Under the pieces are notes generated by a model. It was not told the DNA's origin. It saw only the letters and a program-made list of their open reading frames with translations, and ran no database searches. Both the position numbers and the translations under genes were made by a program. Of a stretch of DNA of 64,000 bases, positions 9,881-40,698 are shown piece by piece. Every line of letters begins with the position of its first letter. Within the stretch, counting starts at the first letter, position 1. The DNA is from Hymenobacter sp. YIM 151858-1 (GTDB lineage: Bacteria > Bacteroidota > Bacteroidia > Cytophagales > Hymenobacteraceae), in assembly GCF_025979705.1 (NCBI RefSeq), contig NZ_CP110136.1, positions 682,001-746,000 on the forward strand. Direction: 5' to 3'.

Positions 9881-10257
9881 GGCCGGGAAGGGTTTTGGTA
9901 GTAGGCAACAAACGGGGCCGGCTCGGCCGGGGGGCAGCGTGCTTGTTTGGCCACTGCTCCTGATTGCTAAGTTACCCGATATAATGGTAGAATGTAAGGG
10001 TTAAAATGCTGAAAATCAAGCTGCGTGTTTGTTCCGGGCGGGGTGAGTACTTATGGCGCAGCTACAAGTCAGGCGTGCGGGTTGCGGCCGCGCGGCCCCG
10101 GCTTGTGGCGGGCGGTACACGTAGTTGCCGAGGCGAGGGGGGCGGGGGCAGTTGCTGCCGGCTAACTGTTACATTAGGAGGCCCATTGGCTGGCAGGCTG
10201 CCGCAGAAAGCCGGCGCGTGGCTGCTTATGGGGGTTATAAGCCAGGGTTACAGGTAT
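9881..10257. other. Divergent promoter region, STAS gene / rsbQ
   Basis: This 377-bp gene-free stretch separates the divergent STAS and rsbQ genes. It has an AT-rich segment at 9967-10015 that could hold promoters, but I find no clean TAnnTTTG box. The long frame running through it from 10006 is compositionally unlike protein. Confidence 0.4.
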
Positions 10258-32790: not shown

Positions 32791-34320
32791 ATGCGCTTCA
32801 ACTTTACTTTTCGCAAAAACAAGCCGGCGCAAGTAGCAAACCACGAGGGTGCTCCGGCTTTCCAACTCACCCCGGCTTTGGAGCTGTACGCCGCCGTGGC
32901 AACCGCCGCGCTGAGCGACCATTTCTACGAAAAAGCCGGCACCCGCCTGCAGCGTTTACGCGAGCTGGTAGCCCAGAATGATCCGCGCTTTGTGGCTCAG
33001 CTGGCCGTGTATGCTCGTGAGCGGCTGAACCTGCGCTCGGTACCGTTGGTGCTGGCCGTGGAGCTGGCCCAAGTGCACCGCGGCGACAACCTCGTGAGCC
33101 GCTTGGTGGCCCGCGTGGTGCAGCGCGCCGATGAAATAACCGAACTGCTCGCCTTCTACGCCCTGGCCAACCAGCGCCAGGGCCCGAAAACGCTGAACCG
33201 CCTCTCGAAGCAGCTGCAGAAGGGCCTGGCCCTGGCCTTCAACCGCTTCGATGGCTACCAGTTGGCCAAGTACGACCGGGCCGGGCAGGTGCGCCTGCGC
33301 GATGCCTTGTTCCTGGTGCACCCCACCGCCAAAAGCGCTGAGCAGCAAGCCTTGTTCGACCAACTGGTGTGCGGCGAGCTGCCCACGCCCTACACCTGGG
33401 AAACGGAGCTGTCGGCCCTAGGTCAGGAGCCGTTTGCTACGGCCGAAGAGCGGCAAGCGGCTTTCCGCAATAAGTGGGAAGAGCTGATTGCGAGCGGCAA
33501 GCTGGGCTACATGGCCTTGCTGCGCAACCTGCGCAACATCCTCGAAGCCGAGGTTTCGGCGGCGGCGGTGGAGCAGGTGTGCACCAGCCTCGCCGACCGC
33601 TTTGCCGTGGCGCGCAGCAAGCAGCTGCCGTTCCGCTACCTGGCCGCCTACCGCGAGCTGCTGCAGGTGCGCTCGGGCCACGTGCCCCGCGTACTCGAAG
33701 CCCTGGAAATGGCCATCGGACACTCCATCCAAAACCTGCGCGGCTTCGATGCAAATACGCGGGTGGTGGTGGCCTGCGACGTGTCGGGCTCGATGCAGCA
33801 GCCGGTATCGGCGCGCAGCAAAGTGCAGCTCTACGACGTGGGCCTGGTGCTGGGCATGTTGCTGCAGAGCCGCTGCGCCAACGTGGTAACCGGCATGTTC
33901 GGCGACCGGTGGAAGCGCATTGCGCTGCCCCGTAACCAAGTGCTCAGCAACGTGCAGGAGTTCTACCGCCGCGAAGGCGAGGTAGGCTACAGCACCAACG
34001 GCCACTTGGTGGTGCGCGAGCTTCGGCAGCAGCGCGAGGTGGTAGATAAGGTGATGCTCTTCACCGACTGCCAGCTCTGGGACAGCCACAACCACGGCGA
34101 CACCTTGGCGCAGGAATGGGCCGAGTACCGCCGCACAGTAGCACCCCAGGCCCGCCTGTACCTCTTCGACCTGGCCGGCCACGGCAACACGCCCGTGGAG
34201 GTGCGCCACAACGATGGCGTGGCCCTCATTGCGGGTTGGTCGGATAAGGTATTCGACGTGCTGCAGGCGCTGGAAAACGGCGGCACGGCCTTGTCGGAAA
34301 TCGAGCAGATCGAGCTGTAG
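32791..34320 (+). CDS. rsr: Ro60/Rsr orthologue (TROVE domain plus vWA domain)
   Basis: 509 residues. The TROVE HEAT-repeat ring occupies about residues 25-310 (RFVAQLAVYARERLNLRSVP, RVVQRADEITELLAFYALAN, LPFRYLAAYRELLQV). The vWA/MIDAS domain follows (about 325-509: VVACDVSGSMQQPVS with DxSxS, then FTDCQLW). Ro60 binds Y RNAs on its outer surface and threads 3' ends of misfolded RNAs through the ring; in bacteria it tethers to PNPase and other RNases. Four Y-RNA-like genes and two rtcB genes follow on the same strand, as in the Salmonella rsr-yrl-rtcB locus. ATG 32791 (MRFNFTFRKNK) is preferred to a start 13 codons upstream. Confidence 0.95.
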   Translation: MRFNFTFRKNKPAQVANHEGAPAFQLTPALELYAAVATAALSDHFYEKAGTRLQRLRELVAQNDPRFVAQLAVYARERLNLRSVPLVLAVELAQVHRGDNLVSRLVARVVQRADEITELLAFYALANQRQGPKTLNRLSKQLQKGLALAFNRFDGYQLAKYDRAGQVRLRDALFLVHPTAKSAEQQALFDQLVCGELPTPYTWETELSALGQEPFATAEERQAAFRNKWEELIASGKLGYMALLRNLRNILEAEVSAAAVEQVCTSLADRFAVARSKQLPFRYLAAYRELLQVRSGHVPRVLEALEMAIGHSIQNLRGFDANTRVVVACDVSGSMQQPVSARSKVQLYDVGLVLGMLLQSRCANVVTGMFGDRWKRIALPRNQVLSNVQEFYRREGEVGYSTNGHLVVRELRQQREVVDKVMLFTDCQLWDSHNHGDTLAQEWAEYRRTVAPQARLYLFDLAGHGNTPVEVRHNDGVALIAGWSDKVFDVLQALENGGTALSEIEQIEL

Positions 34321-34408
34321 GCCTGCCTGGCAGGCAATCAGTTAGCAACTACAACTACCATCATCCGTGCCCAATCCTTACCCACAATTCTGCTAAACCA
34401 AAGCTGCC

Positions 34409-34438
34409 GGGGCGGCGGCTAATCCGAGCCGCTGCCCC
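34409..34438 (+). terminator. Hairpin after rsr
   Basis: GGGGCGGCGGCT, loop AATCCG, AGCCGCTGCCCC (one G:U pair), with a T6 tract 22 nt later (34453). It may end the rsr mRNA or only partly attenuate entry into the RNA array. A smaller hairpin (GCCTGCC-T-GGCAGGC) directly follows the rsr stop codon. Confidence 0.6.
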
Positions 34439-34535
34439 ATCATCCCGGACACTTTTTTCAACTTCTTACTGCAATGAAGCGCAGATAACAACATCAAGCA
34501 TCGGCCCTAGGTGCTGATGCCTCCGCCGCGGCCAG

Positions 34536-34691
34536 CCAACTCGTAAGGTGCCGTAGACGAGCGTTACTTCGTGGCATCGTTTTCGGGTGCGGCGCAATGG
34601 TTGCCGTATCAACGCGGGTTCGAATCCCGTCCCTGGCCAGTGGTCAGGTGGTGAAAACATTTCGCTTGTCGCCTGTAGCCCTTGCAGTTGG
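34536..34691 (+). ncRNA. Y-RNA-like tRNA-mimic RNA, unit 1
   Basis: The ends pair: CCAACT-(C)-GTAAGG (34536-34548) with CCTTGC-AGTTGG (34680-34691), with one bulged C. Inside the stem is the conserved GGTGCCGTAG. A tRNA T-arm follows (GCGGG-TTCGAAT-CCCGT, 34614-34630), then an acceptor-like hairpin closed by a 3-nt loop (CCTGGCC-AGT-GGTCAGG, 34632-34648), then a D-arm-like region (34649-34668). T-arm before acceptor hairpin before D-side is a circularly permuted tRNA. This is the design known for YrlA-type bacterial Y RNAs that bind Ro60 by the terminal stem. Confidence 0.8.
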
Positions 34692-34713
34692 TTAGGCCAG
34701 TGGATCATAGCTT

Positions 34714-34853
34714 GCTAAGCGGGTGCCGTAGCGCGGCCATCCTTCGTACCATCCTTGTCGCGGGTTCGACTCCCGAAGTGGCGCCCTAGGGCACTGCGCA
34801 TACGCGAACGGTAGGGCAGACTCGTTGGCCGGGCACCAATTGCCCCGTTTAGC
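34714..34853 (+). ncRNA. Y-RNA-like tRNA-mimic RNA, unit 2
   Basis: The terminal stem GCTAAGCGGG (34714-34723) pairs with CCCGTTTAGC (34844-34853) over 10 bp with one G:U pair, leaving an extra C next to it. The conserved TGCCGTAG follows, folding as GCCG-TAGCG-CGGC. The T-arm is CGGG-TTCGACT-CCCG (34761-34775), and the acceptor-like hairpin centres on GCC-CTAG-GGC (34784-34793). CGGTAGGGC in the D-side region resembles a D-loop GG. The length is 140 nt. It starts 22 nt after unit 1, so the units are probably cut from one transcript. Confidence 0.8.
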
Positions 34854-34861
34854 TTAAACCT

Positions 34862-35002
34862 TGTTGGGTGCCGTAGCCGGGCCATGCTTCGATTCAGATT
34901 CGCCGTGTCGCGGGTTCGATTCCCGCTCGCCAGCCCTAGGTGGTTGGCGGTAGCTCAGTTGGTAGAGCAGGATATGTAGGCTTGGCGCTTGTTGCCCCAA
35001 CA
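34862..35002 (+). ncRNA. Y-RNA-like tRNA-mimic RNA, unit 3 (canonical D-arm)
   Basis: The terminal stem TGTTGGG (34862-34868) pairs with CCCAACA (34996-35002). After TGCCGTAG comes the T-arm GCGGG-TTCGATT-CCCGC (34910-34926) and the acceptor-like hairpin CGCCAGCC-CTAGGT-GGTTGGCG (34928-34949). The D-side is a textbook tRNA D-arm: TAGCTCAGTTGGTAGAGCA (34951-34969). The 3' side ends GCTTGTTGCCCC. This unit shows the tRNA mimicry most clearly. The next unit begins after 9 nt (CTTTTCTTA). Confidence 0.85.
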
Positions 35003-35011
35003 CTTTTCTTA

Positions 35012-35163
35012 CTGCTGACCGGGTGCCGTAGGACGGCGTTACTTCGGTAAGATCTGACGATCGTGCAGGTTCAAATCCTGCGCCTTGCCGCCTAGGTGGC
35101 AAGTGGCGCACCCGCCTGCGGGTGTGCCGGCAACGCCAGCCGCTTGTTGCCCCGTGTCAGCAG
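35012..35163 (+). ncRNA. Y-RNA-like tRNA-mimic RNA, unit 4 (D-arm replaced by a hairpin)
   Basis: The terminal stem CTGCTGAC-CGGG (35012-35023) pairs with CCCG-(T)-GTCAGCAG (35151-35163) with a small bulge. GCCG-TAGGA-CGGC follows. The T-arm is GCAGG-TTCAAAT-CCTGC (35065-35081), and the acceptor-like hairpin CTTGCCGC-CTAG-GTGGCAAG (35084-35103). Where unit 3 has a D-arm, this one has a strong hairpin GGCGCACCCG-CCTG-CGGGTGTGCC (35105-35128). The 3' element GCTTGTTGCCCC is shared with unit 3. Confidence 0.8.
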
Positions 35164-35176
35164 CTCGTTCCGAAAA

Positions 35177-35232
35177 CTCCCCTCCTCAGCTGAGGAGGGG
35201 ACGCGGCCACGCAGTGGCCGCTGGGGTGGTGG
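35177..35232. repeat. Palindromic repeat, family B, variant with inserted hairpin
   Basis: CTCCCCTCCTCAGCTGAGGAGGGG is a full palindrome. The usual tail CTAGGGGTGGTT is interrupted by ACGCGGCCACGCAGTGGCCGCT before GGGGTGGTG. Confidence 0.75.
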
Positions 35233-35268
35233 GCCTCGCGTCGGATAGTAACCTCAACCAACCAGCAC

Positions 35269-35405
35269 GTCATGCTGAGCTTGTCGAAGCATCTCTACCG
35301 CTTCGCTTGGGTTACTAGCTCACGTCAGCACGCGAGATGTCTCGACTACGCTCGACATGACGATCAGGAGAAGCGGTAGAGATGCTTCGGCAAGCTCAGC
35401 ATGAC
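35269..35405. repeat. Composite inverted repeat, family A
   Basis: GTCATGCTGAGCTTGTCGAA...ACCGCTTCG is followed by a core CACGCGAGATGTCTCGACTACGC...GACATGACG and the inverse AAGCGGTAGAGATGCTTCGG...CTCAGCATGAC. The outer 35 bp pair almost perfectly. Confidence 0.8.
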
Positions 35406-35457
35406 GCCTCATGGTTATCGACCTAGGGTAATCGTTCGGGCATTAGCCCAGCGACCA

Positions 35458-35504
35458 TCAACCACCCCGCCCTTCGGGCACCCCTCCTCATCTGAGGAGG
35501 GGAG
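35458..35504. repeat. Palindromic repeat, family B, variant
   Basis: TCAACCACCCCGCCCTTCGGGC then ACCCCTCCTCATCTGAGGAGGGG. With the two preceding repeats it fills 35164-35533, between the Y RNA array and the first rtcB. Confidence 0.8.
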
Positions 35505-35533
35505 TTCGTTCTCACCTTCACTTTCCCACCATT

Positions 35534-36934
35534 ATGGCTAATCAATTACGCGGCAACGACCTTCGGCAGCTTGGCTTCCCCGAAGGACGTGCCATCGGGC
35601 TAGCGCTGGCTCAACTACAGCGCAAACAGCTGAAGCGCCTGTCGCAAACCGACCAGATGGCTTTGCTGCAGGCCCTCATCCACAACCCGCACAACTTCCT
35701 TACCGACCTCGACTGGAGCCACACCGCCGCGGCGCTGTTGCCCCCGCCCAGCCGGCACATTGCCTTAGCCGAGCGCAAGGAGTACGTAACGTTCGGGGCT
35801 GAGTACATTGACCCCAGCGCCGTGCACCAGATGGAGGTAGCCATGAAGCTGCCCGTAACAGTGGGCGGTGCCCTAATGCCCGACGCCCACCACGGCTACG
35901 GTCTGCCCATCGGCGGCGTGCTGGCTACCGACAACGCGGTGATTCCGTACGCCGTCGGCGTCGACATTGGCTGCCGCATGGCCTTGTCCATCTTCGCGCT
36001 GCCGCCGCAGTACCTCACGCAGCGCGTGCAGGAGCTGAAAAACATCTTGCTCGCCAACACCAAGTTCGGCAACCGCGACGTGTTCCGGCACGGGCAGAAG
36101 CTGGGCCACGAGGTGTTGGAACGCGATGAATTCAGCACGATTCCGTTCTTGCGCAACAAGCAGGAAACCGCCGCGGCGCAGATTGGTACGTCGGGCTCGG
36201 GCAACCACTTCGTGGAGTTCGGCTTTGTTGAGATTACCGACCCCAGCAACGAAATGGGTGTGCCCGTGGGCCAGTACCTGGGGCTGCTGTCGCACTCGGG
36301 CTCACGGGGCCTGGGTGCCAGCGTGGCGCAGCACTACACCAAGCTTGCCAAAGACACCTGCCAGCTTCCCGCCGAAGCGCAACACCTCGCGTGGTTGACT
36401 TTGGACTCGGAAGCCGGGCAGGAATACTGGGCCGCCATGAACCTGGCCGGCGACTACGCCTCGGCCTGCCACCACCAGATTCACCAGCGCATTGCCCGCG
36501 CCCTAGGAGAACGGCCCTTGGCCAAGGTGGAGAACCACCACAACTTTGCCTGGAAGGGGCGCCTCTCCGATGGCCGCGAGGTTATCGTGCACCGCAAGGG
36601 CGCTACGCCGGCCGGCAAAGGCGTGCTCGGAGTTATTCCGGGTTCGATGACGGCGCCGGGATTCATTGTACGCGGTCGGGGAGTGGCAGAGTCACTGGCT
36701 TCGGCTTCGCACGGGGCCGGGCGGCTGATGTCGCGCACCCGGGCCAAGCAGGAGCTGGGCGAAGCCGAAGTGCGCCGCCACCTGCAGCAGCACGGCGTGG
36801 AGCTGATCGGCGGCGGCGTCGACGAAGCGCCGCAGGCCTACAAGGACATCTACTCCGTGATGGAAAGCCAGCGCGATTTGGTGGATGTGCTTGGCACTTT
36901 CACGCCTAAGATTGTGCGCATGGATGGTGCCTGA
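35534..36934 (+). CDS. rtcB: RtcB-type RNA ligase, copy 1
   Basis: 466 residues. RtcB joins RNA 2',3'-cyclic phosphate or 3'-phosphate ends to 5'-OH ends using GTP and Mn2+. Visible motifs: MPDAHHGYGLPIGGVLA, the metal-binding Cys in GVDIGCRMA, GSGNHFVE, LSHSGSRGLG, VENHHNFAW, HRKGATPA, GSMTAPGFIV, and the guanylated His in ASASHGAGRLMSR. The set is complete, so it should be active. No archease gene is nearby, which RtcB of some organisms needs. Its place after Ro60 and Y RNAs suggests RNA repair after stress. Confidence 0.95.
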   Translation: MANQLRGNDLRQLGFPEGRAIGLALAQLQRKQLKRLSQTDQMALLQALIHNPHNFLTDLDWSHTAAALLPPPSRHIALAERKEYVTFGAEYIDPSAVHQMEVAMKLPVTVGGALMPDAHHGYGLPIGGVLATDNAVIPYAVGVDIGCRMALSIFALPPQYLTQRVQELKNILLANTKFGNRDVFRHGQKLGHEVLERDEFSTIPFLRNKQETAAAQIGTSGSGNHFVEFGFVEITDPSNEMGVPVGQYLGLLSHSGSRGLGASVAQHYTKLAKDTCQLPAEAQHLAWLTLDSEAGQEYWAAMNLAGDYASACHHQIHQRIARALGERPLAKVENHHNFAWKGRLSDGREVIVHRKGATPAGKGVLGVIPGSMTAPGFIVRGRGVAESLASASHGAGRLMSRTRAKQELGEAEVRRHLQQHGVELIGGGVDEAPQAYKDIYSVMESQRDLVDVLGTFTPKIVRMDGA

Positions 36935-36985
36935 TCTGCCCAAGTGCCGCCTAGGTGCCAAGGCCTCTCTGAGCCGAAAACAAAC

Positions 36986-37023
36986 AAGCGGGTCCGACGA
37001 ACAGCTGTTCGTCGGGCCCGCTT
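36986..37023. terminator. Terminator between convergent rtcB and DUF4394 genes
   Basis: AAGCGGGTCCGACGAACAG pairs with CTGTTCGTCGGGCCCGCTT and is followed by TTGTTGT. The symmetric flanks allow use from either side. Confidence 0.85.
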
Positions 37024-37047
37024 TTGTTGTACGCACCTAGGGCGCTG

Positions 37048-39015
37048 CTATTCCACAAACAGGCGCTTGGTCAGTTGGCCTTCGGCCGTGTTTACCTGCA
37101 CCAGGTACAAGCCGGTTTTCACGCCCGAGAGCGAAATGGCGGCCGGTTGCGCACCGCGCGCCGTAAGGGTTTGCTGGCTAACCTCCTGGCCCAGCGCATT
37201 CAGCACCCGTACGGTGAGGGGCTGCTTGGTGAGTTCGGTAGGCAGCACCAAGTTGGCCGTGCCCTGGGCCGGGTTGGGGTACAGCGACACTTGCGCGGCC
37301 AGTACGCTGGGCACCGTAGCCGTGGGCAAGCCAGCCTGCGAGTAGGCCGCCATGCCGCTGATGTTGATGCCACCGCCCACGGGGCCCACCAGCGTAGTGG
37401 CACCCGTAGTCAGGTTCACGGAGTAGAGGTTATCCGAGGTGCTGGTGCCGGTGCTGGCTGCCAGCAACGCCTGGTTGGTGGTACCGTCGGTGATGATGTC
37501 GAAATCGACCGAGTTGGTGGTGCGGTTCACGGTAATGCCCGAGCTGCCCACGGTGTTCAGCACGCCGTCGTTGGGCGGGGTTTGGGTTACCAGCACGTTC
37601 AGCGCGTCGTCGTAATTGAAGAGCGTGGTGGTAGTGGCGCCGTTCACGTTGTTGGTATAGGCCGAAGCCGAAACCGACGGCGTAGCGCTGGCATTCACGT
37701 CGGTAGCGGCGTAGTTCAGCTGCCCATCGGTAGCGGCAATGGTGCCGTCGTTGGGGTTGAGGCGGAAGTTGCCGCGGTTGGTGCTCGTTACCCGAATGCG
37801 GTCGACGGTGGGGTTGAAATCAAAACCGATGCGGTCGGTGGCAGCCCCTAGGTTAAGGGTAAGGGCCGAGCCCACGGCAGTAGCAGCGCCGGTGGTCAGG
37901 TTGAGGCGGTAGAGCTGCGCCGTGGTGTTGGCAGCGCTATAACCTAGGGCAAACAGCTGGTTGGTGGCGGGGCGGAAATCAACCCCCACCAAAGCCTGCC
38001 CAGCGGTAAGGCCCGTGATGGGCGTGAGCGTGCGGATGGTGCCAGGCAGAGCCGAATCGAACGACAGCAGGTTGGTGCCCGACACGGCGTAAATCAGACG
38101 GCCGGTAAGCGTGGCCGGCACTGTGCGGTCGATGGCTACGGCAATGTCGGTAATCATGCTGGTGGCCGTGCCCACGGCACCTGCGGCGGTTGCTGCGCCG
38201 CTGGTGAGGTTCACGGTGTAGAGCGTGGTGCCCGTGGAGGTGCCCGCCATCGTTACCACCAAGTAGGCCGTGTTGGTTTGGTTGGCGGCGTTGTAGGCAA
38301 TGTCGAGGTCGGCGCTTTGGGTGGCGCCGCTGGTGGTTACACCTAGGGCACCAATGGTGTTGAGGGTGCCGTCGTTGGGCGGTACTTGCGACACCAGGCG
38401 GCTGTTCACCTCATCGATGTTGTAGAGCGTGGTGCTGCCCGTGCCGATGTAGCTGTTGGTGTAAGCCGAGGCGCCCACGCCGGGCGTTTGGCCCGAGTTG
38501 GCATCGGCCGGGGCGTAGGTTAGCTGGCCGTCGGTGGCGGCCAGGGCGCCGTCGTTGGGGTTGAGGCGCAGGTTGGCGCGGTTGGTGCTGGTTACCCGAA
38601 TGCGGTCGACGGTGGGGTTGAAGTCGAAGCCGATGCGGTCGGTGGTGCCGCCTAGGTTCAGCGTGAGGGCTGTGCCTACGGCAGTTGCGGCGCCGGTGCC
38701 CGCATTAATGCGGTAGAGCTGCGCCGTGGTGGTGGCCGGGTTGTAGCCCAGGGCAAACAGCTCGCCGGTGTTGGGGCGCACATCCATGCCTACGATGGTT
38801 TGACCGGTGGCTACGCCCGTAATGGCCGTGGTAGCCGTGAGCGTGCCCGGGGCCGAGGCCTGGAAGGTAACTAGGTTGGTGCCCGATAGGCCGTAGATGG
38901 TTTGGGCCGCGGCGGGTGCCAGGGCAGCCAGGCTCAGCACCGAACCTAGCAGGGCGGCGCGGCGCATACGGCGGGCAATCAGGCGAGTAGTGGGCAACAG
39001 TACTGGTGTTTGCAT
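37048..39015 (-). CDS. Exported protein with two DUF4394 domains and a T9SS sorting domain
   Basis: 655 residues. A signal peptide ends near AAPAAAQ (residue 38). Two tandem DUF4394 beta-propeller-like domains follow (about 40-290 and 300-560), each with LFALGYxxxxTTAQLYR, RIGFDFNPTVDRIRVTSTNR and LRLNPNDG/FRLNPNDG. The C-terminus is a T9SS type A sorting domain (LYPNPAQG...GLYLVQVNTAEGQ). It is therefore surface-attached or secreted. The function of DUF4394 is unknown. It sits on the opposite strand between the two rtcB genes. A nested hairpin (AGCTCC-GCTGGCT...AGCCAGC-GGAGCT, 39046-39080) lies just before its start. Confidence 0.92.
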   Translation of the reverse strand: MQTPVLLPTTRLIARRMRRAALLGSVLSLAALAPAAAQTIYGLSGTNLVTFQASAPGTLTATTAITGVATGQTIVGMDVRPNTGELFALGYNPATTTAQLYRINAGTGAATAVGTALTLNLGGTTDRIGFDFNPTVDRIRVTSTNRANLRLNPNDGALAATDGQLTYAPADANSGQTPGVGASAYTNSYIGTGSTTLYNIDEVNSRLVSQVPPNDGTLNTIGALGVTTSGATQSADLDIAYNAANQTNTAYLVVTMAGTSTGTTLYTVNLTSGAATAAGAVGTATSMITDIAVAIDRTVPATLTGRLIYAVSGTNLLSFDSALPGTIRTLTPITGLTAGQALVGVDFRPATNQLFALGYSAANTTAQLYRLNLTTGAATAVGSALTLNLGAATDRIGFDFNPTVDRIRVTSTNRGNFRLNPNDGTIAATDGQLNYAATDVNASATPSVSASAYTNNVNGATTTTLFNYDDALNVLVTQTPPNDGVLNTVGSSGITVNRTTNSVDFDIITDGTTNQALLAASTGTSTSDNLYSVNLTTGATTLVGPVGGGINISGMAAYSQAGLPTATVPSVLAAQVSLYPNPAQGTANLVLPTELTKQPLTVRVLNALGQEVSQQTLTARGAQPAAISLSGVKTGLYLVQVNTAEGQLTKRLFVE

Positions 39016-39261
39016 GGGATATGGTAAGATTGAAAATGGCGTACAGCTCCGCTGGCTTGCTTAGCCAGCGAGGTAGGAGCTACGGACCACCAACACCCGG
39101 CGGATTGCCAAAAGCCATTAAATCCGCATTAAATATTCAACCTCATCTATGTGTTGTCGGTAGCTGATCCATCATACCTAAGGCATGCAGCATCAGCATG
39201 CACATGCAACCCGGGCCACGCCAGGTGCGGTAAACCCACTACCATCCTTCCCATCTGCATC

Positions 39262-40698
39262 ATGGCCAAAAACACCAATAAACTTCACAGCAAGGACCTA
39301 CGCCAGCTCGGCTTCACCGACGACAAGCAGATCAGCCTTGCCCTCGACATACTCGACCAACGCGAGCTGCGCAAGCTCGATAAAGGCAGCGCCCTGGCGC
39401 TGCTGCGCGAAATTAAAGCCGACCCCTACAAGTACGTGCGCGACCAAACCTGGCGCCCCTTAGCCCAGGAGCTGGTGCCGCAACCCAGCCGCGACGTAAA
39501 GCTGAACCCCGAAATAAAAGACTACCGCCGCTACGGCGAGGCCTTTATCGAAGACGGGGCCCGCAAGCAGATGGACACCGCTATGCAACTGCCCGTTTCG
39601 ATTGACGGCGCCCTTATGCCCGACGCCCACCAAGGCTACGGTCTGCCCATTGGCGGCGTGCTGGCCGTAGATAATGCCGTGATACCCTACGGCGTGGGCA
39701 TGGACATCGGCTGCCGCATGGCCTTGTCGGTGTTCGAGCTGCCGCCGCGCTACCTCGAGCAGCGCCGCGACGAGCTGAAAAAGCTGCTGCACAACCACAC
39801 CCGCTTCGGCAACAAAGAAGTATTCAAGAACCCCGCCGACGACCCCGTGCTGGAGCGGCCCGAGTTCAAGGAAATCGGGGTGGTGCGCGGCAAGCACGAA
39901 GCCGCCGTAAAGCAGCTCGGCTCATCGGGCTCGGGCAACCACTTCGTGGAATGGGGCATTGTTGATATCACCGAGGAAGAAAACGACCTCAACCTGCCCC
40001 TGGGCCAGTACCTGGGGCTGCTCTCGCACAGCGGCTCGCGGGGCCTGGGCGCTGCCATTGCCCAGCACTACACCAAAGTAGCCATGAACAAGTGCCAGCT
40101 GCCGCCCGAAGCCCGCTACCTTGCCTGGCTCGACCTCGACTCGCAGGAAGGGCAGGAGTACTGGCGCGCCATGAACCTGGCCGGCGACTACGCCTCGGCC
40201 TGCCACCACGACATTCACCGGCGCCTTAGCAAAGCCCTGGGTTACAATCCGCTGGCGCAGGTAGAGAACCACCACAATTTTGCCTGGAAGGAAACCCTGG
40301 CCGACGGCCGCGAAGCCATTGTGCACCGCAAGGGCGCCACGCCGGCCGGCCAGGGTGTGCTGGGCATTATCCCCGGCTCCATGACGGCCCCCGGCTTTAT
40401 CGTGCGCGGCCGCGGCGAGCGGGATTCCATCCAGTCGGCCTCGCACGGGGCGGGGCGGCGGCTTTCGCGCACGCAGGCCAAGCAGCAGGTAACCGAAGGC
40501 GAGCTGCGCCGCCTGTTGCGCGACCAGGGCGTGGAGCTAATCGGCGGCGGCCTCGACGAGGCCCCGATGGCTTATAAGGACATCCACCAGGTAATGGCGC
40601 ACCAACGCGACCTGGTCGACGTGCTCGGCTCCTTTACGCCGCGCATTGTGCGCATGGACGCCGGCGGCTCGGGCAAAAGCAAGTACGGCGGCGAGTAG
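39262..40698 (+). CDS. rtcB: RtcB-type RNA ligase, copy 2
   Basis: 478 residues, clearly paralogous to the copy at 35534 over its whole length, with the same catalytic set: MPDAHQGYGLPIGGVLA, GMDIGCRMA, GSGNHFVEWG, LSHSGSRGLG, VENHHNFAW, HRKGATPA, GSMTAPGFIV and SASHGAGRRLSR. It differs most near residues 170-200 and at the C-terminus (a Gly/Lys-rich tail GGSGKSKYGGE). ATG 39262 (MAKNTNKLHSKDLRQLGF) aligns with the start of copy 1; sequence upstream is not protein-like. The two may divide targets or respond to different signals. Confidence 0.95.
   Translation: MAKNTNKLHSKDLRQLGFTDDKQISLALDILDQRELRKLDKGSALALLREIKADPYKYVRDQTWRPLAQELVPQPSRDVKLNPEIKDYRRYGEAFIEDGARKQMDTAMQLPVSIDGALMPDAHQGYGLPIGGVLAVDNAVIPYGVGMDIGCRMALSVFELPPRYLEQRRDELKKLLHNHTRFGNKEVFKNPADDPVLERPEFKEIGVVRGKHEAAVKQLGSSGSGNHFVEWGIVDITEEENDLNLPLGQYLGLLSHSGSRGLGAAIAQHYTKVAMNKCQLPPEARYLAWLDLDSQEGQEYWRAMNLAGDYASACHHDIHRRLSKALGYNPLAQVENHHNFAWKETLADGREAIVHRKGATPAGQGVLGIIPGSMTAPGFIVRGRGERDSIQSASHGAGRRLSRTQAKQQVTEGELRRLLRDQGVELIGGGLDEAPMAYKDIHQVMAHQRDLVDVLGSFTPRIVRMDAGGSGKSKYGGE

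Follow-up and report, generated by a model that had tools for sequence, protein, structure and literature searches.

A Ro60 locus in Hymenobacter with an array of four different Y RNA genes and two RtcB ligases

Introduction

The stretch of DNA analysed here (the window: 64,000 bases of Hymenobacter sp. YIM 151858-1, C1:682001-746000, from a genome of 4,621,779 bases in 3 contigs that is 99.99% complete) carries on its plus strand a ro60 gene, four Y RNA genes arrayed over 34539-35161, and a pair of genes for the RNA ligase RtcB. The four RNAs share one stem and differ in the heads that it bears. Judging from the genes, we read this part of the window as a chromosomal Ro60 ribonucleoprotein locus in which interchangeable RNA adaptors would serve one protein ring beside RtcB-based repair, and we put the probability of this reading at about 0.7. 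The kinds of parts are already known; what we call new is the conserved array of Y RNAs with several heads, together with an RtcB pair without RtcA. Full-text searches of a partial literature collection turned up, among the papers listed, none with a title or opening abstract lines that describe such arrays in Bacteroidota.

Comparisons are to the Ro60 loci of the best 80 of 165 relatives, a sample weighted to near kin, which together with the window make 81 sequences and 1.51 Mb; each locus stretch stops about 9 kb from Ro60 or at a contig end. Two of the 45 Hymenobacter/Solirubrum loci (L024 and L073) share one strain name. The nearest relative is Solirubrum puertoriconensis (L001), whose Ro60 is 96% identical to that of the window.

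Results

Four Y RNA genes 3' of ro60

The array begins 219 nt past the ro60 stop codon. It was recognised with a covariance model, R1, based on an alignment of 41 units, all from genomes other than that of the window. R1 finds unit 1 at 34539-34689 (61.8 bits, E 3.1e-14), unit 2 at 34714-34853 (72.7 bits, E 5.2e-17), unit 3 at 34859-35005 (140.9 bits, E 1.9e-34) and unit 4 at 35014-35161 (55.5 bits, E 1.2e-12), all on the plus strand; the next match in the window has an E of 0.026. Genome-wide, with 150 of 1,329 first-look candidates scored, the same four units occupy ranks 1 to 4 (E 1.4e-32, 3.8e-15, 2.3e-12 and 9.0e-11), and rank 5 (E 7.0e-4) overlaps two tRNA genes. An initial annotation, made from the letters of the window, had proposed four Y-RNA-like genes here; that a model drawn only from other genomes ranks all four best in 4.62 Mb bears this out. 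Run over all 80 loci, R1 has 440 matches with E<=0.01, a number that includes the model's own 41 rows and partial matches to tRNA genes in tRNA-rich loci.

The four units have a common core, GTGNCGTNG-N10-CTTCG (also given as GTGCCGTAG-N10-CTTCG), the exact form of which begins at 34548, 34723, 34868 and 35023. Over the 81 sequences the exact core occurs 303 times within the 4.5 kb 3' of Ro60 (352 kb in all); the rest of that strand has none, and the other strand has five. Allowing one mismatch, the counts are 103 (3' of Ro60), 20 (same strand elsewhere) and 46 (other strand); with two mismatches they are 90, 123 and 129. Cores that deviate from the exact form by no more than one base, 406 in all, are treated as units; of the 103 one-mismatch cores among them, about 6 are expected by chance at the same-strand background rate. 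Nine of the 13 exact core matches in the window's own genome lie elsewhere than in the array, so the core alone is unspecific at genome scale; core plus fold is specific.

Two other placements of the core deserve mention. A core-like motif with 0-2 mismatches lies antisense within the Ro60 gene of many loci (33995 in the window and about 10199-10205 in others, minus strand), and probably represents the codons of the conserved GEVGYSTNG stretch. In a Microscillaceae metagenome-assembled genome (MAG; L078, 200-750) two one-mismatch cores stand 5' of Ro60 and none stands 3'; R1 matches there too, and we therefore rejected the idea that this locus has Ro60 without Y units.

No Rfam family reaches its gathering score in the window. 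The Rfam YrlA model (RF02553), at E<=5, matches 34878-35001 in unit 3 (40.6 bits, E 3.3e-7; the gathering score is 69) and none of units 1, 2 and 4, and a YrlA match at gathering score is absent from seven of seven further Bacteroidota Ro60 loci tested. Because the model falls under its cut-off in all of these loci, Bacteroidota Y RNA genes are probably absent from annotations, or entered as tRNAs. ARAGORN makes 88 tRNA calls in the 80 loci, of which 20 overlap or touch Y units (in L011, L019-L021, L024, L026-L028 and others); annotation pipelines may therefore list Y RNAs as tRNAs. In the window neither ARAGORN nor RF00005 makes a call, and the possibility that the four units are tRNAs was set aside.

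A common stem

Each unit has the same two-helix Ro60-type stem around a near-invariant internal loop, which is the predicted site of Ro60 binding. The 3' strand can be anchored by sequence alone, with no fold assumed, in 368 of the 406 units. When pairing between columns is compared to that of shuffled partners, the excess is greatest in nine column pairs, all of which lie in the two helices that flank the core, as do 16 of the 30 pairs listed. Stem scores of at least 15 are reached by 67% of the 406 units and by 10% of 3,725 mispaired decoys, and scores of at least 17 by 42% and 1.4%, respectively; the window's units score 18.5, 17.5, 16.5 and 15.5 in order from unit 1 to unit 4.

The alignment of 41 units supports the same structure: 94.0% of cells are paired and 26 of 33 pairs show changes on both sides. 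Its covariation score is 0.650, compared with 0.105-0.181 when partners are slid by 1-3 columns and 0.177 +/- 0.010 in shuffles, the slid control favouring the drawn structure because that structure was drawn from the same 41 sequences. RNAalifold, unaided, recovers outer, inner, T-arm, acceptor-like and D-arm helices. T-arm, acceptor-like hairpin and D-arm follow one another in that order, and the long stem occupies the position of the anticodon arm, as in a permuted tRNA. YrlA likewise is described as a basal stem with a tRNA-like domain (PMC8394870).

Four kinds of head

Unit 3 is a complete tRNA mimic of the YrlA type, with T-arm, acceptor-like hairpin and D-arm all present. By the same arm test units 1, 2 and 4 have the T-arm only, and the initial description of all four RNAs as tRNA mimics therefore holds for unit 3 and goes too far for the rest. 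The head of unit 1, with no D-arm detected by this test, has an extra 5' insert and an invariant GAAAA; both-side changes are seen in 9 of 28 pairs of its subfamily alignment (A3, 12 sequences). Unit 2 combines a near-invariant T-arm region, a hairpin and a D-loop-like GGTAGGGC, no regular D-arm being detected, and 18 of 38 pairs change on both sides (A4, 15 sequences). Unit 4 has an acceptor-like hairpin and, replacing the D-arm, another hairpin in which 3 of 5 pairs show both-side changes, as do 19 of the 42 predicted pairs overall (A2, 13 sequences). One row of the unit 4 subfamily (L004) has a D-arm-like sequence where the others have the substitute hairpin.

A T-arm and a D-arm occur together in 121 of the 274 stem-confirmed units, with 101 having the T-arm alone and 52 neither; 1,580 control windows gave 3 with both arms, 81 with a T-arm, 50 with a D-arm and 1,446 with neither. 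The other 132 units comprise 28 with both arms, 40 with a T-arm, 63 with neither and 1 with a D-arm alone. All 45 Hymenobacter/Solirubrum loci have a stem-confirmed unit with both arms, and so do 71 of the 79 loci that have cores 3' of Ro60, rising to 77 of 79 when unconfirmed stems are included. In 2014 Chen et al. reportedly found Y RNAs close to Ro60 in over 250 species, each of which had at least one that is tRNA-like.

Units standing in the same order in the window and in S. puertoriconensis are 93.0, 86.8, 93.0 and 93.9% identical (units 1 to 4), and reciprocal best matches connect units 1, 2, 3 and 4 to 39, 19, 64 and 34 loci, many of those for units 1 and 4 being short and mainly in the shared core. 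Within the window, the units are 38-58% identical to one another. Orthologues at 87-94% and paralogues at 38-58%, with reciprocal best matches across loci, show that the units are old paralogues and not recent copies. Short Y-like units with the stem and without a tRNA-like head also occur in relatives (L001, 11392-11464; L079, 11469).

How common the arrangement is

A survey of Hymenobacter genomes for the same gene order, as the initial annotation had advised, gave several cores and rtcB 3' of Ro60 in 45 of 45 Hymenobacter/Solirubrum loci. Exact cores number 2-8 per locus (median 6), with at least four in 40 loci and at least five in 35; one mismatch raises the range to 3-11, and 38 of the 45 have at least four stem-confirmed units. 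Seven units are stem-confirmed in the locus with eleven one-mismatch candidates. R1 counts seven units in S. puertoriconensis, three of them short, and the window's four stand at the low end of the range. Two rtcB genes are seen in 16 of the 45 loci, which is a lower bound given where the stretches stop. At these frequencies neither four units nor two rtcB genes are exceptional.

Loci of Pontibacter, Spirosoma and Mucilaginibacter have Y cores without rtcB 3' of Ro60 in the stretch. Among 60 genomes sampled from the family, RtcB is found in 50 and Ro60 in 24; two of these 24 (G055 and G059) have a Ro60 that is broken or fragmented. In G004, which is of the same genus, there is an RtcB at C1:693934-695016 and no Ro60 match.

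The Ro60 protein and its upstream region

The ro60 gene (32791-34320, plus strand) encodes 509 amino acids with TROVE and Ro60-type vWA domains in one chain, as had been supposed; PF05731 (TROVE, 101 bits) and PF25045 (vWA_Ro60, 37.4 bits) both score above their curated cut-offs. The protein matches the solved TROVE proteins 9l5y/9kop with 101.7 bits and, weakly, the D. radiodurans Rsr structure 2nvo (26.8 bits). Its DxSxS motif reads DVSGS at residue 330, which we take to be the MIDAS motif. With 39.8 bits it misses the NCBIfam Rsr equivalog cut-off (NF041674, 900 bits) by far, which places it on a divergent branch of the same superfamily.

Between ro60 and the array lies a strong 12-bp hairpin (34409-34438, plus strand; -28 kcal/mol, z -4.0, none of 200 shuffles as good) that is identical in S. 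puertoriconensis and has TTTTTT 14 bases beyond it. The terminator scan does not list it; it is possibly a terminator, an attenuator or a processing site. A shared promoter or operator upstream of ro60 was set aside: by eye the region could be aligned only between the window and S. puertoriconensis among 16 loci, and a scan limited to sigma-70-type promoters gave one site, which lies on the minus strand (0.6 expected). Of the 80 loci, 24 (e.g., L049, L064, L074) have a gene for a WYL-domain regulator 5' of Ro60, on the minus strand and within the stretch, as judged with one query protein; the 45 Hymenobacter/Solirubrum loci have none. Other Bacteroidota Ro60 loci may therefore be under WYL control.

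The RtcB pair and the genes around it

RtcB1 (35534-36934, plus strand; PF01139 275.8 bits) and RtcB2 (39262-40698, plus strand; PF01139 271.6 bits) are both complete, in agreement with the initial annotation. The six metal/GMP residues of Pyrococcus horikoshii RtcB (D95, C98, H203, H234, H329 and H404; PMC10630183) are all kept in alignment, as D144, C147, H225, H254, H336 and H353 in RtcB1 and as D148, C151, H227, H256, H338 and H355 in RtcB2. The start of rtcB2 is most likely the ATG at 39262 and not the GTG at 39151. These two are the only RtcB in the genome (three matches, two being pieces of one gene). In a tree that includes the window, RtcB1 (46 rows) and RtcB2 (17 rows) form sister clades with support of 100/97 and 100/100, although the program warns of long branches, among them the RtcB2 of L012. 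The duplication therefore predates these Hymenobacter species, and RtcB2 has often been lost or moved.

The two rtcB genes are separated by a minus-strand gene (37048-39015) for a secreted DUF4394 protein sorted by the type IX secretion system (T9SS; PF14339 492 bits, PF18962 48 bits). Relatives of it occur in 11 of the 80 loci and between two rtcB genes only in S. puertoriconensis besides the window; we take it to be a bystander. The initial statement that the island lies on one strand is correct for ro60, the Y RNAs and both rtcB genes and is broken by this gene, which makes a single operon for the whole locus unlikely. The rtcB pair may once have been an operon, since the gap between the two rtcB open frames is 55 bases in L028 and 107 in L047.

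The space between the array and rtcB1 is taken up by a composite dispersed repeat with inverted arms (35165-35525), which has 128 matching pieces in the genome. It stands where S. puertoriconensis has three more short Y-like units (11392, 11471, 11558), and for that reason may mark a loss of Y units. Matches to Rfam AaHKsRNA41 at 35174-35506 were rejected, being below gathering score and on the dispersed repeat.

RtcA is not found in the genome (no PF01137 match; the same search was positive in 5 of 14 control genomes), nor is RtcR (no PF06956 match; E. coli control positive), nor archease, for which the search was positive in control genomes. PNPase is encoded elsewhere (TIGR03591, 919 bits).

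Three loci from the wider sample have many tRNA genes. In a Bacteroidota MAG (L050, 2026-15802 of a 397 kb contig) the Ro60/Y locus stands amid 17 ARAGORN tRNA calls, with a reverse transcriptase, Thg1, an RNA ligase (PF09414), a WYL regulator, a Band-7 protein and an RNase T-type exonuclease as neighbours of Ro60; it reads as an RNA-repair island with spare tRNAs. L069 (443-12712) has 11 tRNA calls around Ro60, with RtcB, an RF-1-domain protein, an M41 peptidase, an RNA ligase, WYL and an exonuclease, and the Ro60/Y locus of L076 has 10 tRNA calls and WYL. In Anabaena a single repressor controls a tRNA array and rtcB (PMC10272220).

Discussion

Ro60 is gated by Y RNAs, which in Deinococcus also tie it to PNPase (PMC4726728, PMC8394870). 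By analogy, the common stem would dock each Y RNA on the same Ro60 ring and gate the ring, and the head would decide the particle's partner, whether PNPase, tRNA-handling enzymes or others, so that the array would be an exchangeable set of adaptors for one Ro60 ring. RtcB joins RNAs whose ends carry a 3'-phosphate or a 2',3'-cyclic phosphate, and the Salmonella rsr-yrlBA-rtcBA operon responds to broken tRNAs (PMC7790460). RtcB1 and RtcB2 would accordingly seal RNAs ending in 2',3'-cyclic or 3'-phosphate and 5'-OH, most likely cleaved tRNAs or rRNA, and without RtcA would depend on the ends left by RNases. Damaged structured RNA could then meet one of two fates: degradation by Ro60, Y RNA and PNPase, or sealing by RtcB. 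Four heads on one stem fit the initial proposal that different Y RNAs gate Ro60; the gating itself, like a healing role for the two ligases, is what we infer from the genes.

A number of observations weigh against this reading. Between the window and S. puertoriconensis, the spacers of the array (6-20 bases) and the 215 bases before it are 85-92% identical, and at this short distance the conservation of the units barely exceeds that of the sequence around them. The inner stem of unit 4 is weaker (5 of 7 pairs), and its stem score of 15.5 stands close to the 15 that 10% of decoys reach. Folding energies of single units are not clearly under those of shuffles for units 1-3 (z -0.8, -0.2 and -2.0; for unit 4, -3.8), and minimum-energy folding of single units was discarded as not telling for units 1 and 2. 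Ro60 is found in 24 of 60 family genomes, and its function is therefore dispensable in the family. No regulator was found, a WYL gene being unseen in window positions 24001-50000 and in Hymenobacter loci. Isotype-specific tRNA mimicry was also considered and set aside: unit 3 shares words of 19-20 nt with Thr and Gly tRNAs and the other units at most 13, and a crude fixed-offset comparison to 31 distinct tRNA sequences of the genome, which has 47 tRNA matches (the 31 come from 30 loci plus the window), gave no specific match.

The same lack of extra conservation at short distance would be expected if the four RNAs were redundant copies that share one job, their number setting the dose and their heads drifting without separate roles. 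Copy number does vary widely among species (2-8 exact cores), and the array of S. puertoriconensis ends in three units that the window does not have. Set against this, every subfamily keeps its own head across species, the substitute hairpin of unit 4 shows both-side changes in 3 of its 5 pairs, and the gulf between paralogues (38-58%) and orthologues (87-94%) is wide; we regard redundancy as unlikely. A different possibility is that the heads are decoys that mimic tRNAs and so occupy anticodon nucleases or tRNA-cutting toxins while RtcB mends the cuts, the whole forming a toxin-tolerance module. The idea that YrlA is a competitive inhibitor was raised by Hughes et al. (PMC7790460), and the permuted tRNA head, the adjacency of RtcB to the array and the three Bacteroidota MAGs in which the Ro60/Y locus lies amid 10-17 ARAGORN tRNA calls (with an RNA ligase in two) are all in keeping with it. 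The heads, however, lack an anticodon loop and match no isotype specifically, the neighbours are stable and chromosomal (an HDAC-like gene in 40 of the 80 loci, a DnaJ-like one in 41), and an anti-phage role was rejected when PADLOC gave no hit among five proteins scanned. On balance we consider decoys quite improbable.

Two further readings concern what the units are and what RtcB does to them. T-arms, one D-arm and the ARAGORN calls on some relatives' units might suggest a degenerate tRNA cluster, with the units being tRNA pseudogenes and not Y RNAs; the permuted order, the covarying Ro60-type stem, the near-invariant loop and the silence of both tRNA searches on the window's units already contradict this, and we give it almost no credence. 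If RtcB instead acted on the Y RNAs themselves, by nick repair or circularisation, the array would be its main substrate, and it would be explained why array and rtcB go together in every one of the 45 Hymenobacter/Solirubrum loci. That Pontibacter, Spirosoma and Mucilaginibacter keep Y cores without rtcB 3' of Ro60, and that RtcB is found in 50 of 60 family genomes as against 24 for Ro60, makes it very unlikely.

We therefore retain the reading of the locus as a set of RNA adaptors on one Ro60 ring beside RtcB repair. A wider generalisation, which we offer as a tentative possibility, is that Bacteroidota Ro60 is a machine with one ring and many adaptors, the heads of ancient Y subfamilies recruiting different partners or substrates, and two specialised RtcB sealing without RtcA. 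The heads at its disposal would then, as tentatively, be the complete tRNA mimic, the T-arm with a substitute hairpin, the T-arm with a 5' insert and, in relatives, the short headless stems. With one Ro60 and four naturally occurring heads on an unvarying stem, the role of bacterial Y RNA heads becomes testable in one strain, and an old, conserved set of different Y RNAs could show how one protein gets steered to several jobs. The locus further provides two RtcB paralogues from a genome in which searches for RtcA, RtcR and archease gave no match.

Comparison with known systems

The closest parallel is the Salmonella rsr-yrlBA-rtcBA operon (Hughes et al. 2020, PMC7790460), which likewise encodes a Ro60 orthologue, Y RNAs and RtcB together, and whose YrlA, like unit 3, has a tRNA-like domain. 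The window differs from it in having four Y RNAs and not two, two RtcB, and a minus-strand gene between the rtcB genes; in addition, RtcA and RtcR are not found in the window's genome. The YrlA family of Rfam (RF02553) has the same order of stem, T-arm, hairpin and D-arm, and unit 3 matches it end to end, although with 40.6 bits against the gathering score of 69; three of the window's heads depart from the family in having no regular D-arm. The Deinococcus radiodurans RYPER (Chen et al. 2013, as related in PMC4726728 and PMC8394870) is composed of Ro60, Y RNA and PNPase, genes for which are present here as well; relative to the RYPER, the window adds linkage to rtcB and an array with several heads.

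Sets of RtcB are known elsewhere too. Myxococcus has more than one RtcB in its genome. RtcB2-PrfH of E. coli is a further case of an RtcB paralogue (PMC9223846). In contrast to both, the two copies in the window stand beside a Ro60/Y RNA array and belong to sister clades within Hymenobacter.

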